Part shown: in pieces, positions 21,341 through 53,796 of the stretch
How the letters are laid out: each line of letters starts with the position of its first letter
Numbering within the stretch: position 1 is the stretch's first letter
From: Polaribacter filamentus
Lineage (GTDB): Bacteria > Bacteroidota > Bacteroidia > Flavobacteriales > Flavobacteriaceae
NCBI RefSeq assembly: GCF_002943715.1
Contig: NZ_MQUA01000013.1
Location: forward strand, 2,741,501 to 2,805,500
Length of the DNA: 64,000 nt
Direction: 5' to 3'
Notes under the pieces: model-generated
Told to the model about the DNA's origin: nothing
The model's input: the letters and a program-made list of their open reading frames with translations, nothing else
Databases searched by the model: none
Made by a program: the position numbers and the translations under genes

Positions 21341-22104
21341 ATGAAAATATTAATTTTAGAAGACGAAATTCCTGCATATCAAAAACTAACCAAGTGTTTA
21401 GATACTTTTTTTGATATAAAAATCTCACAAGACTGGGCACGCACTATTGTTGACGGTAAACAGTTACTTCAAGAAAATTCTTATGATTTTATTTTGTCTG
21501 ATATTCAACTCTTAGATGGTTTGTCTTTTGATTTATTCACTAAAATAGAAATTGATACGCCTATTATTTTTTGCTCTGCTCACGCTGAGTTTTTATTCCA
21601 AGCATTTAACACAAACGGAATAGCATACATTCTAAAACCCTATTCTCAAGACGATTTTAATAAGGCCATTTTAAAATATCAATCTTTATTTAATAAAGGT
21701 GATTATACTACTTTAAATACTTCAACCATTGATGCTTTAAAATCTGCATTACAAGAAGAATATACAACTTACAAAAAACGATTTGTGATTAAAAAAGCAT
21801 CAGGAATTCAGTTATTAAATGCTGTTGATATTACTTTAATTGCTGCCTCTGGAGATTTCTGCTTGGTAAATGATGCTATAGGAAAACGACATACAATTTC
21901 ACAAAATCTAGGAAGTATACATCAACAATTAAACCCTAAAAAGTTTTTAAAATCAATAGAAGTGAAATAATAAATATCGATTTTATCGAGAAAATAGAAA
22001 GTCATTTTAAAAATCGATTATTAATTTCTATCAAAAACTACAAAGAAAAAGTAATAACCAGTTCTAATACAACTTCAGATTTTAGAAAATGGTTGGATCA
22101 TTAA
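21341..22104 (+). pseudogene. LytTR-family response regulator, frameshifted in the DNA-binding domain
   Basis: The first frame (21341-21970) gives a receiver domain with acidic LEDE at 6-9, the phospho-acceptor Asp54 in SDIQLLDG, and KPYSQDDF. Most of a LytTR DNA-binding domain follows (KKRFVIKKASGIQLLNAVDITLIAASGDF). The frame then stops at SIEVK. Adding one T to the T5 run at 21944-21948 restores the natural continuation FFKINRSEIINIDFIEKI and a terminus at WLDH (stop 22102-22104), which is the normal family ending. Truncation removes the last strands and helix of the LytTR fold, so DNA binding is probably lost. Together with the frameshifted kinase, this implies that the whole pathway is off, or that both bases are miscalled. 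Confidence 0.75.
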
Positions 22105-22191
22105 AATTAAACATGTTTGTCATTATTGCGCAGTCAATAGTCTAAACTTACTTCTTATGATGGGTTCTTGCTAATGCGTTTGAAAACAAGT

Positions 22192-22264
22192 TTAGCCCAG
22201 ATTAAAAAGACATCCTTTTTTTGTTTTTCAAAAAAATATATAATGGAAAGCAGTAAAAAGCTTC
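22192..22264 (+). repeat. Flanked-hairpin intergenic repeat, copy 1
   Basis: The left flank is TTAGCCCAGATT (22192-22203) and the right flank GGAAAGCAGTAAAAAGCTTC (22245-22264). Between them TTTTTTTG (22216-22223) and CAAAAAAA (22229-22236) form a perfect stem around a T5 loop. A second copy with the same flanks and a different hairpin is at 52540-52617. The flanks resemble a dispersed element I believe is common in Flavobacteria. Function is unknown. It lies between the decayed LytTR gene and lepA. Confidence 0.6.
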
Positions 22265-22360: not shown

Positions 22361-24157
22361 TTAATCATTCAACTTTAAAATCGCCATGAATGCTTCTTGC
22401 GGAATTTCTACATTCCCAACTTGACGCATTCTCTTCTTCCCTTTTTTCTGCTTTTCTAATAGTTTACGTTTACGAGAAATATCTCCTCCATAACATTTTG
22501 CAGTTACATCTTTACGCAACGCTTTCGTAGTTTCTCTTGCAATAATCTTAGCTCCAATTGCGGCCTGAATAGGAATATCAAACTGTTGTCTCGGAATTAA
22601 TTGCTTTAACTTATCTACAATTTTTTTACCAATTGTAAAGGCGTTATCGGCATGTAAAAGTGCAGAAAGTGCATCTACAGGTTGTGCATTTAATAAAATA
22701 TCTACTCTTACTAATTTCGATTCTCTCATACCAATTGGATGGTAATCAAAAGAAGCATATCCTTTAGAAACTGTTTTTAGACGATCGTAAAAATCAAATA
22801 CAATTTCTGCCAAAGGCATTTCAAAAGTAAGTTCAACTCTTTCTGTTGTTAAATACGTTTGATTTATAATTTGTCCACGTTTTTCGATACACAAATTCAT
22901 TACTTGACCAATAAAATCTGATTTTGTAATAATTGAAGCTTTTATAAATGGTTCTTCTACCCTATCTAATCTTGATGGATCTGGTAAATCTGTTGGATTA
23001 TTTAAAATAATAATTTCCTCCGGATTTTTCTTTGTATACGCGTGGTAAGAAACGTTTGGTACCGTTGTAATAACGGTCATGTTAAACTCACGTTCTAAAC
23101 GTTCTTGAATAATTTCCATGTGCAACATTCCTAAGAATCCACATCTAAATCCAAAGCCTAAAGCGGCAGAACTTTCTGGAACAAAAACCAAAGAAGCATC
23201 GTTTAATTGTAGTTTTTCCATCGAAAAACGTAATTCTTCAAAGTCTTCGGTGTCCACCGGATAAATACCCGCAAAAACCATTGGTTTCACATCTTCAAAA
23301 CCATCAATTCTCTCTGTAGTTGGGTTTAAAGCATCTGTGATTGTATCACCAACTTTTACTTCTTTTGCAGTTTTAATACCTGTAATTAAATAACCAACAT
23401 CACCAGTTTTTACCGATTTCTTTACAACCTGAGACAGCTTTAACGTTCCAACTTCATCCGCAAAATAATTTTTGCCGGTTGACATGAATTTAATTTGTTG
23501 TCCTTTTTTAATTTCTCCGTTTAAAACTCTAAAATAAGTTTCTATCCCTCTATAGGAATTGTAAACTGAATCAAAAATTAAAGCCTGCAATGGTCCATCT
23601 GGATTCCCTTTTGGAGCAGGAATTTTATTAATAATTGCTTCTAAAATATTTTCAACTCCAAAACCTGTTTTTCCACTCGCATGAATTACGTCTTCTGGAT
23701 TACACCCTAATAAATCGACAATATCGTCTGTAACTTCTTCAGGATTTGCTGATGGTAAATCTATTTTATTTAAAACCGGAATAATCTCTAAATCGTTCTC
23801 TAAAGCCAAATATAAATTAGAAATTGTCTGCGCTTGAATACTTTGCGCTGCATCCACAATTAATAAAGCACCTTCACAAGCGGCAATAGAACGCGAAACT
23901 TCGTAAGAAAAATCTACGTGACCTGGAGTGTCAATTAAGTTTAAAATATATTGTTCGCCATTGTGCGTATAATCCATTTGAATGGCATGCGATTTTATGG
24001 TGATACCACGTTCTCGCTCTAAATCCATACTATCTAGTAACTGTTCTTTTTTTTCACGATCAGTTACAGTGCCCGTAAAATCTAACAATCTATCTGCTAA
24101 CGTACTTTTACCATGATCAATATGCGCGATAATGCAAAAGTTTCTAATATTCTTCAT
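22361..24157 (-). CDS. lepA: Elongation factor 4 (LepA), ribosome back-translocase GTPase
   Basis: LepA/EF4 is a translational GTPase acting on stalled or initiating ribosomes. The 598-residue protein has the P-loop AHIDHGKS (11-18), the G2 region [14 protein letters not shown] (76-80) and NKID (130-133). EF-G-like domains II, III and V follow, and the LepA-specific C-terminal domain ends with the basic segment [25 protein letters not shown]. Length is canonical. It is leftward and probably monocistronic, with a good promoter upstream at 24186-24216. Confidence 0.97.
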
Positions 24158-32884: not shown

Positions 32885-32924
32885 AAATTCTAAAAAAAAC
32901 TCCGCTCAAGATGAGCGGAGTTTT
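32885..32924 (-). terminator. Rho-independent terminator of the ompA-like gene
   Basis: AAAACTCCGCTC (32896-32907) and GAGCGGAGTTTT (32913-32924) form a perfect 12-base stem with a five-base loop. On the minus strand it runs into TTTTTTTTAGAA. It is the strongest terminator in the window, 29 bases past the OmpA stop. Confidence 0.92.
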
Positions 32925-32952
32925 AATTTATTTTTAAGTAAAATCAAAAAAC

Positions 32953-34311
32953 TTATTCAGTTAACTTAACATCAACTCTTCTATTGTCTTTTCTACCTGC
33001 TCTAGTATTATTACTTGTAAGAGGATTTTTCTCTCCAAATCCTAAAGTTTCTAATCTTTTAGCATCAAAACCTTTTTCAACTAAATATGCTTTTGCAGAT
33101 ACAGCTCTTCTTTCAGATAAATATTGATTATAACCAGCATTACCAATACTATCAGTATAACCTTCTATAACAAAGATTACATCTTTTACGGGACTAATTA
33201 AGTCATATATTTTATCTAATTTCTCAGCTGTTGACTTGTTTACCTCTGCTCTATCAAAAGCAAATTCAAGACCTTTACTGTATTCTGCTAAAGCAGCAAT
33301 TTGACTTGGAGTTATAAGTACTTCAGGACAACCTTTATTAGAAGCTGGTCCAGCTTCATCTTTACAATTATCATCTTTATCTAAAACACCATCATTATCC
33401 GTATCTGGCCAAGGACATCCATTATTAGCAGAAGGTCCTGCAACATTAGCACATTTATCATCTTTATCAACAACACCGTCACCATCAGTATCTGTACAAC
33501 CTTTATTAGCTTTTGTTCCTTTAGAATTAGGACACATGTCATCTTTATCAGCAACTCCGTCACCATCCGCATCAGGACAACCGTTCATATCTGCTAAACC
33601 AGCAACAGTAGGACAAGCGTCATCAGAATCTTTTATACCATCCCCATCCGCATCTGGACAACCATTAAATTCTATTAAACCCACAACTTCAGGGCACGAA
33701 TCATCTTTATCATATACTCCATCTCCATCAGTATCAATTCCTCCAAATTTAATAACTAAACCTAAAGAAGATTGGTAATGCCTTTCAACTTGGTCAGAAA
33801 AACCAGTAATCGTTGCATGTTGAAAACTCAAACCTACGTTTTCATTAAACCAAGTATTAAATCCAAGGCCTATATTAAGCATACCTTCACTTTCTGAATC
33901 TACAGAAACATAAGATCCTCCTAAATAAACAAACGGATCAAAATACTGAGAAGTATCTCCTATTAAATTATTTACATCATATTTTACATTAGCTCCGATT
34001 GAATAGTAAAGAAAATCAGAATCATCTTTACTTTTAAAGGTAGAAATCTTATTCAAAGATCCTGCTAATTGCAAAGAAAAACCTTTTTCTAGATACTTTT
34101 CAGCAGAAATTCTAGAAATGCTAGGCAAAACATTCCAGTCACTATTACCTAATAAGTCTTTCACTTGATCACCAAAATCAGTTCCTCCATAAAAATCTAT
34201 AGTATTTACGCCAAAACTTACAGCCCATGGGTTGTTTCGGTCTTGAGCATTTACGTTACTACCTAAAGCAAGCATAAATAAAGCTATCACAGCTATTTTT
34301 AATTGTTTCAT
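32953..34311 (-). CDS. OmpA-family protein with N-terminal barrel, TSP3 calcium repeats and peptidoglycan-binding domain
   Basis: From the ATG at 34311 (MKQLKIAV) the protein has 452 residues; an ATG two codons earlier is less likely because the paralogue starts at MKQ. Domains in order: signal peptide to NVNAQ, an eight-stranded type beta barrel (about 25-190), and five thrombospondin type 3 repeats of the D-x-D-x-D-G-x-x-D-x-x-D-x-C kind (about 192-305). The last is an OmpA C-terminal domain (about 335-450) with FVIEGYTDSIGNAGYNQYLSERRA and NRRVDVKLTE. It should tether the outer membrane to peptidoglycan, and the TSP3 rod probably binds calcium. It is next to a partial duplicate, and one of the strongest terminators follows. 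Confidence 0.93.
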   Translation of the reverse strand: MKQLKIAVIALFMLALGSNVNAQDRNNPWAVSFGVNTIDFYGGTDFGDQVKDLLGNSDWNVLPSISRISAEKYLEKGFSLQLAGSLNKISTFKSKDDSDFLYYSIGANVKYDVNNLIGDTSQYFDPFVYLGGSYVSVDSESEGMLNIGLGFNTWFNENVGLSFQHATITGFSDQVERHYQSSLGLVIKFGGIDTDGDGVYDKDDSCPEVVGLIEFNGCPDADGDGIKDSDDACPTVAGLADMNGCPDADGDGVADKDDMCPNSKGTKANKGCTDTDGDGVVDKDDKCANVAGPSANNGCPWPDTDNDGVLDKDDNCKDEAGPASNKGCPEVLITPSQIAALAEYSKGLEFAFDRAEVNKSTAEKLDKIYDLISPVKDVIFVIEGYTDSIGNAGYNQYLSERRAVSAKAYLVEKGFDAKRLETLGFGEKNPLTSNNTRAGRKDNRRVDVKLTE

Positions 34312-52519: not shown

Positions 52520-52539
52520 CTAAAATCTGGTAAATAGGC

Positions 52540-52617
52540 TTAGCCCTGATTGATCGGCCTGTTTGAGCTCTCTCGCTTCTGGGCGTGAAGCGAGTAGCGA
52601 AAGCAGGAAATAGCTTC
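52540..52617 (+). repeat. Flanked-hairpin intergenic repeat, copy 2
   Basis: The left flank is TTAGCCCTGATT (52540-52551) and the right flank CGAAAGCAGGAAATAGCTTC (52598-52617). A perfect eight-base stem, CTCGCTTC (52572-52579) with GAAGCGAG (52587-52594), lies between them around TGGGCGT. The element is much richer in G and C than its surroundings. It shares flanks, but not hairpin sequence, with copy 1 at 22192-22264. It lies just downstream of the EamA gene, where it could also act as a 3' stem in the transcript. Confidence 0.65.
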
Positions 52618-52691: not shown

Positions 52692-53738
52692 TCAAAACAA
52701 GTCTTTATTACTAATATTTAGGTAATTACGTTTTACAAAAGCTAAAATAGCTTCTAAAATTTCACCCATATTTTTGCAATCTTTAAACTTAACATCACCA
52801 ACATATTTTACTAATTGTTTTTTTAAAAGGTCCACATTTTCAGGAAAAGAAATCGTGTCTGCTTTCATACATTTTATTAAACGTGTAGTTCTTCTTGGTG
52901 CTGTTATCATTCTTTTGGCCATAAAAGAACGTTCTTCTATTTTATATTGTCGGATAGAATCGTTTTGTAATTTTTTACCCACCATTTCTATCATTTTAAA
53001 GTTCTCTTTCATAAACTGCAAGTTGTACACTTTTAAGTTTCCTTCAAAAGATTGCTGGTCGAAATCTATGGCTCTAATTTTATATATAATCTGGTCAAAA
53101 TCATGTATTGGGGTAATTACGTAATTGTAAGAACGCATATCGCCGAGCAAGCGTATTAAGCAACGTTCCTTGAATTTCACAAACTCTTTGGCGATTTGAG
53201 CTTTTTCTAGCTCTGTACATTTTGGTAAAATATCTCTAATAAAATCGTCTCCAGGAATCCCTGCAATGTGCTCTTCTATTAACGTATCTTTATAAACTAA
53301 AAAGTTCATATTATGTGGCGACAAAATATGCTCTAACTCCAAACCGTAAATACGAGACGCATCGGCCTTTTTTACATAGAAATACGTAAAGTTATCATTT
53401 AAAATATTTCTGATTTTTATTCTAAATGGTTTTGAATTCCCAAACGTACAATAATCAATAGCATCCACCGTTAAAAAGGGAATACTCTCTAAATTACCGT
53501 CTGAATGCAACCTTGCGTAAATTTCCTTTAAATTTCGATCGATCTCTTCTCTATCATACTGAGAATAATAGGTTCGTACCCAAAGGGTGTCTTCGTCATT
53601 CTTATCATAGACAATAATTGAGCCTTGAAAACGTAATAAATCGTCATAATAAAGAGAAGTGCCTATATTTCTGTTGTATTTCTTTAGATACTCATGAAGC
53701 ATTTCATTTACTGGAAATGTGGGCTTTTTCTTGGACAT
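52692..53738 (-). CDS. Conserved hypothetical protein with kinase-like motifs
   Basis: A 348-residue soluble protein from the ATG at 53738 (MSKKKPTFPVNEML); an earlier ATG at 53759 would add seven residues. I do not recognise the family. By eye it has a protein-kinase-like order of elements: FTYFYVKKAD then GLELEHIL (about 118-138) as a possible Lys/Glu pair, EEHIAGIPGDDF (about 155-166) as a possible hinge, LLGDMRSYNYVI (about 197-208) as a possible catalytic loop, and IRAIDFDQQSF (about 222-232) as a possible metal-binding DFD. No membrane segments or signal peptide. It is a single leftward gene between dprA and the flanked-hairpin repeat. Confidence 0.6.
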   Translation of the reverse strand: MSKKKPTFPVNEMLHEYLKKYNRNIGTSLYYDDLLRFQGSIIVYDKNDEDTLWVRTYYSQYDREEIDRNLKEIYARLHSDGNLESIPFLTVDAIDYCTFGNSKPFRIKIRNILNDNFTYFYVKKADASRIYGLELEHILSPHNMNFLVYKDTLIEEHIAGIPGDDFIRDILPKCTELEKAQIAKEFVKFKERCLIRLLGDMRSYNYVITPIHDFDQIIYKIRAIDFDQQSFEGNLKVYNLQFMKENFKMIEMVGKKLQNDSIRQYKIEERSFMAKRMITAPRRTTRLIKCMKADTISFPENVDLLKKQLVKYVGDVKFKDCKNMGEILEAILAFVKRNYLNISNKDLF

Positions 53739-53796
53739 CAATTTTTTATTTACCACCATCTTCTCTGCTGAATTTCCTCAAAAGTAAGGATTTTGT

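Follow-up and report, generated by a model that had tools for sequence, protein, structure and literature searches.

Flavo-1 elements at gene ends in Polaribacter: inherited frames and exchanged cores

Two short stretches of the window, the 64,000-nucleotide piece of the Polaribacter filamentus genome analyzed here, carry the same outer blocks around differently lettered hairpins, which raises the question of whether such an element is the gene of a small RNA or a repeat of the DNA itself. Our findings favor the second answer, with a probability of about 0.6: Flavo-1, the family to which the first copy is assigned, would be a REP-like dispersed extragenic element that acts via one folded strand, and not an independently expressed small RNA. 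Flavo-1 has been listed since 2010 as a candidate RNA without an assigned function (PMC2864571), and a 2022 review (PMC9029176) includes it in a section and a table on the most abundant sRNAs that give no function for it. Rfam types the family as 'Gene; sRNA', whereas the reading proposed here is that of a dispersed repeat with exchanged cores and a placement at gene ends. The features concerned are these:

22190..22261, + strand: Flavo-1 copy 1, frame A, core type i, worn (RF01705 match over the full length, 1-76; frame and core from comparison with 164 copies)
22216..22236, + strand: apical stem of copy 1, TTTTTTTG / CAAAAAAA, loop TTTTT (sequence and Rfam alignment)
22262..22264, + strand: conserved TTC closing frame A (TAGCTTC; AAGCTTC in copy 1; sequence and alignment of 30 copies)
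21341..21970, + strand: left neighbor gene of copy 1, an ORF with nine relatives in named genomes, presumably a gene resembling a LytTR-type response regulator
22361..24157, - strand: right neighbor gene of copy 1, an ORF with its 3' end towards the element and matched beside the site in related loci, which we take to be lepA-like
52538..52614, + strand: Flavo-1 copy 2, frame A, core type ii, with a G+C-rich apical stem (RF01705 match below the cut-off; DNA matches to other copies)
52572..52594, + strand: apical stem of copy 2, CTCGCTTC / GAAGCGAG, loop TGGGCGT (sequence; present in all four of four fold predictions of copy 2)
52692..53759, - strand: right neighbor gene of copy 2, an ORF with its 3' end towards the element and conserved beside the site

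Family membership, copy number and anatomy

The letters of both copies are as the earlier note had described them, with conserved outer blocks and paired central stems. Copy 1 consists of GTTTAGCCCAGATT (22190-22203), the stem arms TTTTTTTG (22216-22223) and CAAAAAAA (22229-22236) and a closing block, GGAAAGCAGTAAAAAGCTTC, that ends at 22264; copy 2 has the same outer blocks around the arms CTCGCTTC (52572-52579) and GAAGCGAG (52587-52594). A relation to Flavo-1, which had been offered as a guess, is confirmed by the match of copy 1 to RF01705 at 47.0 bits (E 5.4e-7, full length), above the curated gathering score of 42, so that copy 1 is a member of the family in spite of its wear (its diagnostic frame pair is A/A, and GATTA stands in place of GATTG). 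Copy 2 scores 22.1 bits and falls short of that cut-off, yet is homologous to members. It is the sole other Flavo-1 match in the window with the Rfam model at E <=5, and a DNA query that contains it finds two further places in the same genome that match along the element, one at 83% over 112 bases (E 5.3e-26) and one at 82% over 103 bases (E 1.7e-21). Similar G+C-rich apical stems occur in five relatives located elsewhere, of which two belong to the own genome. A model made from 30 own-genome copies, both window copies included, gives copies 1 and 2 scores of 72.7 and 45.6 bits and finds no third copy in the window, where the next-best place reaches 17.8 bits. The Rfam model represents mainly core type i, whereas variants with core ii or frame B get low scores or escape detection, and the Flavo-1 copies at three own-genome loci (L021, L237 and L238) are absent from the Rfam listing for this genome. 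Elsewhere in the window, positions 32892-32980 on the - strand resemble Trp_leader weakly (23.2 bits, where the gathering score is 41) and have a strong terminal stem, CTCCGCTCA...TGAGCGGAG, followed by a T-run, which is probably an ordinary terminator.

The own genome holds at least 35 matches to the Rfam model at E <=10 among the best 150 of 1091 candidates scored, two of these matches, under 20 bits, being left out of the later counts, and extra copies beyond the Rfam matches were found by eye and by DNA search. One of the two low-scoring matches, at C13:3061510, looks like a real Flavo-1 fragment. Across the genus, 49 of 58 genomes have a match at E <=0.001, with counts from 0 to at least 67 per genome (the best 67 candidates of each being scored), and two complete genomes that were scored more deeply hold 69 (G029) and 60 copies (G053). 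These, together with the 35 own copies, form the comparison set of 164, so that the main result comes from three species of a single genus; the own copies at L237 and L238, found later, lie outside it. Flavo-1 was studied here in a marine Polaribacter-like genus and is present more widely across its order, in 65 of 196 genomes and 16 of 62 genera of an order-wide sample (E <=1e-7).

Comparison of these copies resolves the element into two outer frames, A (TAGCCC-N-GATTG ... AAAGC-N'-GGAAATAGCTTC) and B (GCGTTAG-N-GATTG ... AAAGC-N'-CGA-(hairpin)-AACGCCC), that enclose cores of three types, for which the typical letters are CGGCATCC-T5 ... A5-GATATAGTG for core i, CGGTTTGTTTGAGCTC-T6 ... A7-GCGAGTAGTG for core ii and AAAAGCCCACAG ... 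GAGGACTTGTAG for core iii, a core of frame B. The combinations are A/i in 50 copies (one of them a script miscall that should be B/i), A/ii in 41, A/unclear in 1, B/i in 63, B/iii in 6, B/ii in 1 and an unclear frame in 2. Core ii is thus found in 41 of 92 frame-A copies against 1 of 70 in frame B (p 2e-11). The central stems of the two window copies had been taken as compensating versions of one stem, but they are not alleles, copy 1 having core i and copy 2 core ii; the "sequence-free core" of the same proposal survives for the apical stem, which is indeed free, and otherwise gives way to exchange among distinct core types. The second hairpin of frame B is also free in sequence, with a stem of at least three pairs in 41 of the 59 copies that have a recognised 3' end (11 of 70 without one being left out); three-pair stems by themselves are insufficient, and the case for this hairpin rests on long examples such as ACTTTATGCTGA...TCAGCATAAAGT. 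A frame without a core, its 5' arm closely followed by the 3' arm, was found at none of 125 frame-A 5' arms, some of which were counted twice.

Fifteen of the 164 copies exceed 100 bases, and in 11 of these the insert fits one of four repeat patterns recognised by eye. Some Flavo-1 copies carry other hairpin repeats (e.g., TTCGAGT...ATCGAGAAC and GAGATTGC...GCAATG) nested within their apical loop, where the T/A stem has its tip; this is seen in three loci that correspond to the copy 1 site in relatives (L054, L056 and L065) and in twelve further loci. At one own-genome locus (L031), two copies stand head to head 85 bases apart (C4:349724-349807 on the - strand and 349893-349965 on the + strand) with an inverted repeat between them, and one of the pair has core ii and the other core i.

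Covariation and the strand that appears to fold

Structural selection, which the earlier note read from two copies, draws its support from the whole set. Folded singly, either window copy has z-scores between -2.2 and +0.2, and two copies are therefore insufficient as proof; the 164 copies supply both further examples with flanks and a paired core and the covariation itself. Of the 156 copies that have both anchors (8 of 164 lack them), 150 have a Watson-Crick frame pair N-N', as T-A in 78, G-C in 46, C-G in 17 and A-T in 9, with 6 others; 1000 shuffles average 58 and never exceed 75, and slid registers give 17 to 48. The two base pairs of the short helix beside core i are formed in 102 and 103 of 107 copies, against 58 and 54 when shuffled. 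Three base pairs accordingly covary almost perfectly, by changes that recur both within and between genomes, and the shuffle controls are to be read as ignoring relatedness. RNAalifold kept five pairs in a mixed alignment.

Wobble pairs distinguish the two strands. Written on the + strand, the central stems of 154 copies contain 1227 Watson-Crick pairs, 23 G.T, 3 A.C and 7 others, and the three covarying pairs show G.T over A.C at 8 to 1. Judged from this excess, the strand as Rfam writes it appears to be the one that folds. Folding energies computed for RNA of the two strands differ in sign with frame and core and single out neither.

A conserved fold on a preferred strand is what would be expected if, as filed by Rfam, each copy were the gene of a small non-coding RNA whose + strand transcript acts by its fold, and near-perfect covariation, the strand preference and the Rfam type all speak for it, as does the report that several 5' transcribed regions coincide with Flavo-1 matches (PMC9723704). 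That published transcriptome also has matches that lie sense or antisense to transcripts without preference, and many outside them (PMC9723704), and copy number among relatives starts from zero. The dozens of copies moreover carry no promoter signal upstream: a Bacteroidetes-type promoter pair precedes the + strand of 0 of 164 copies under strict and 2 of 164 under loose settings, and the -7 box alone precedes 8 of 164 against 15 in a shuffle. The earlier note's non-coding RNA reading, in the sense of an independent RNA, is left unsupported by the lack of promoter enrichment and of a sense preference, and we hold the small RNA gene to be improbable. On the other side of the element, TAnnTTTG reading into the - strand was seen at 23 of 164 copies against 15 in a shuffle of that side.

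Inherited sites and exchanged cores

The flanks of all 164 copies, up to 1.5 kb, were compared all against all, and homology extends to both flanks in 63 cross-species pairs and to a single flank in 26. The 26 one-flank pairs and 3 of the 63, with inverted or doubled flanks, were left out, and 60 site pairs were used. The frame is identical in 59 of these 60 same-site, same-orientation pairs, where 29.7 would be expected, the exception being a script miscall, and of 39 testable pairs 23 agree to within 3 nt in their distance to the stop codon of the right-hand gene, against 7.4 expected. This agreement in frame and stop distance indicates that shared copies generally go back to one and the same insertion. 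G029 has counterparts of 15 of the 35 own copies and G053 of 19, and these two genomes have 26 copies in common; copies without a counterpart may be absent, have moved, or lie beyond the reach of the flanks.

The cores do not follow the frames. Among 37 frame-A site pairs the core type is identical in 19, with 18.2 expected by chance, and 12 of 25 shared frame-A loci hold mixed cores (one of the 12 includes an unclear core). At shared sites, then, frame, position and orientation are inherited and the core is exchanged. Cores of the same type are somewhat more alike at one site than at random sites (0.769 vs 0.671 for core i, 0.847 vs 0.81 for core ii), which indicates that the core is partly inherited and that turnover within a type is incomplete. 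Homogenization of cores within a genome was not seen, identities within and between species being 0.813/0.805, 0.787/0.778 and 0.693/0.687, so that exchange shuffles a shared pool and does not make the copies uniform.

Across species, each of the two window sites combines a single frame with different cores and, in some loci, lacks the element. The closest named relatives of the copy 1 site are Polaribacter species, with 81-86% identity in the protein of the left neighbor. At this site other species carry core i with a nested hairpin (the three loci named above), core ii (L063, L069 and L064, the last equal in sequence to L055) or worn or odd cores (L066, equal in sequence to L057, and L076). 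Neither frame pattern was found in ten loci, in which worn copies could escape and two of which (L068 and L089) hold loose core patterns, and in one locus (L059) the spacer contains no element; four loci, and a dozen that retain one neighbor only, are uninformative. At the copy 2 site, G001 and G029 share core ii with the own genome, G053 has core i, G004 has a core i enlarged by a long insert, and G050 has a hybrid core. Ten loci are element-free there, with spacers of 6 to 83 bases, one (L103) has a 1.3-kb spacer without a frame pattern, and the remaining loci from the copy 2 DNA query retain one neighbor only.

Placement, mobilization and kinship with other repeats

Three of the 164 copies lie inside a called ORF. 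For the 154 that have a called gene on either side (7 without genes on both sides and the 3 in ORFs being omitted, and genes being called by open-frame length only), the 3' end of the right neighbor points towards the element in 115, and the neighbor orientations are -- in 68, +- in 47, ++ in 26 and -+ in 13, with no bias in the left neighbor (73 facing, 81 not). Counted once per locus, with four loci of discordant context omitted, the numbers are ++ 16, -- 45, +- 32 and -+ 8. The asymmetry between ++ and -- is significant (p 2.6e-4), by frame for A (p 9e-4) and not for B alone (p 0.11). Where the right neighbor of a frame-A copy faces it, the stop codon lies 0-19 nt from the model end in 39 of 73 copies, which together with the 115 of 154 ties placement to the 3' end of the right neighbor.

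Such a placement could mean that the reverse-complement strand is transcribed with the preceding gene and acts on mRNA 3' ends, on their stability or termination, as REPs do in E. coli. The ++/-- asymmetry (16 against 45 loci) and the stop codons within 20 nt agree with this, and REPs of E. coli are described as often lying 1-20 nt past the stop codon (PMC12306157). The wobble pairs point to the other strand, by 23 to 3 in the central stem and by 8 to 1 in the covarying pairs, and because the apparent folding strand is opposite to the mRNA of the right neighbor, an E. coli REP-like action on that mRNA is unsupported. The left neighbor, moreover, is unbiased, and a T-run of at least five within 30 nt follows 30 of 164 elements on the - strand and 24 of 164 on the + strand, which is no terminator signature. 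We regard action in the 3'-UTR as unlikely, if the more credible of the two RNA readings. An intrinsic terminator was rejected, since the U-run is missing from the right place across the 164 copies and none is called near copy 1.

Our preferred reading, a REP-like DNA repeat, draws on elements that are repetitive, variable in number, covarying on the + strand and placed beside the 3' end of a convergent neighbor. Like REPs and BIMEs, Flavo-1 is extragenic, repetitive, folded and near gene 3' ends, and in the broad sense of REP-like dispersed elements, with many extragenic foldable copies at such ends, it belongs among them. It differs from REPs in the strict sense by the rarity of their GTAG tag (GTAG in 6 and CTAC in 12 of 164 copies, within 18-20 nt around either model end), by its greater length and branched fold (the second hairpin of frame B), and by genomes rich in Flavo-1 that are without Y1_Tnp, the REP-associated transposase. 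The inherited frame with an exchanged core is a feature of Flavo-1 for which we have no reference in REPs, although the title of Higgins 1988, as given in the reference list of PMC12306157, asks whether gene conversion drives REP evolution. Flavo-1 works like a REP, yet is not filed as one. CGTC-tagged palindromic repeats, as portrayed in PMC3733652, are likewise dispersed, have no associated transposase and count Bacteroidetes among their hosts; in Flavo-1 CGTC stands near an end in 2 and GACG in 1 of 164 copies. In the open-licence papers searched we saw no description of Flavo-1 as a REP-like repeat or of core exchange, and nothing was found there on palindromic intergenic repeats in Polaribacter.

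Among the three readings that the earlier note had offered, a dispersed, transposition-like substrate fits best, though no mobilizing enzyme was found, and a protein-bound element stays a further candidate. The obvious candidate is a resident Y1 transposase (IS200/RAYT-type) that would move Flavo-1 as REPs are moved, and a folded single-strand repeat of REP style at gene ends, in a genome with seven Y1_Tnp matches, is in keeping with it. Five genomes with 51 to 60 Flavo-1 matches among the best 67 candidates of each (G001, G008, G021, G029 and G053) have no Y1_Tnp match, whereas G002 has 6 Y1 matches and no Flavo-1, and G056 11 and 2, and within 1.5 kb on either side of the seven own Y1 loci only one, L021, holds Flavo-1 ends, about 1.2 kb away. 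Targeting of a replication strand was also rejected: an origin placed at dnaA, with the terminus across from it, gives no bias (29/60 and 35/69), and with a skew-fitted origin the leading sense takes 23/60 (p 0.09) and 23/69 (p 0.008), a bias that follows the orientation of the neighboring gene. Since Y1 presence does not track copy number, a resident Y1/RAYT partner is largely refuted and we consider it very improbable, although a Y1 transposase may have been a past or occasional donor. The own Y1_Tnp matches at L018, L021 and L023, partly stop-broken or short, have in common a ACTTGAAGTCCATAG-type palindrome, which resembles IS200 ends.

In the REP-like reading, copies beside a gene end would persist by descent while trading cores with other copies of the same frame. 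The exchange might proceed by ectopic gene conversion or template switching between copies, with the frame arms as homology, and guidance by these arms is suggested by core ii being common in frame A and nearly missing from frame B. A putative mobilizer, with the folded single strand as its substrate, would carry the element to new sites, and the placement at gene ends may show where insertions are tolerated or favored. Against this reading stands the observation that plain concerted evolution would predict homogenization of cores within a genome, which is not seen. The frames could instead be fixed chromosomal sockets between which a dedicated process swaps hairpin cores, a cassette exchange for non-coding folded DNA, with a putative recombinase or single-stranded hairpin annealing at the replication fork as candidate process; we give sockets little credence. 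Integron attC sites are recognised as folded single strands with a free terminal loop, and Flavo-1 would resemble them in both respects, but no cassettes or array were seen around the copies looked at.

Should Flavo-1 prove to be a REP-like repeat of the DNA, many of the 'sRNA genes' annotated in Flavobacteriales would not be genes. An inherited site with a swapped core offers a natural system in which to measure exchange between very short dispersed repeats, and the same pattern a direct test of what moves Flavo-1 repeats.
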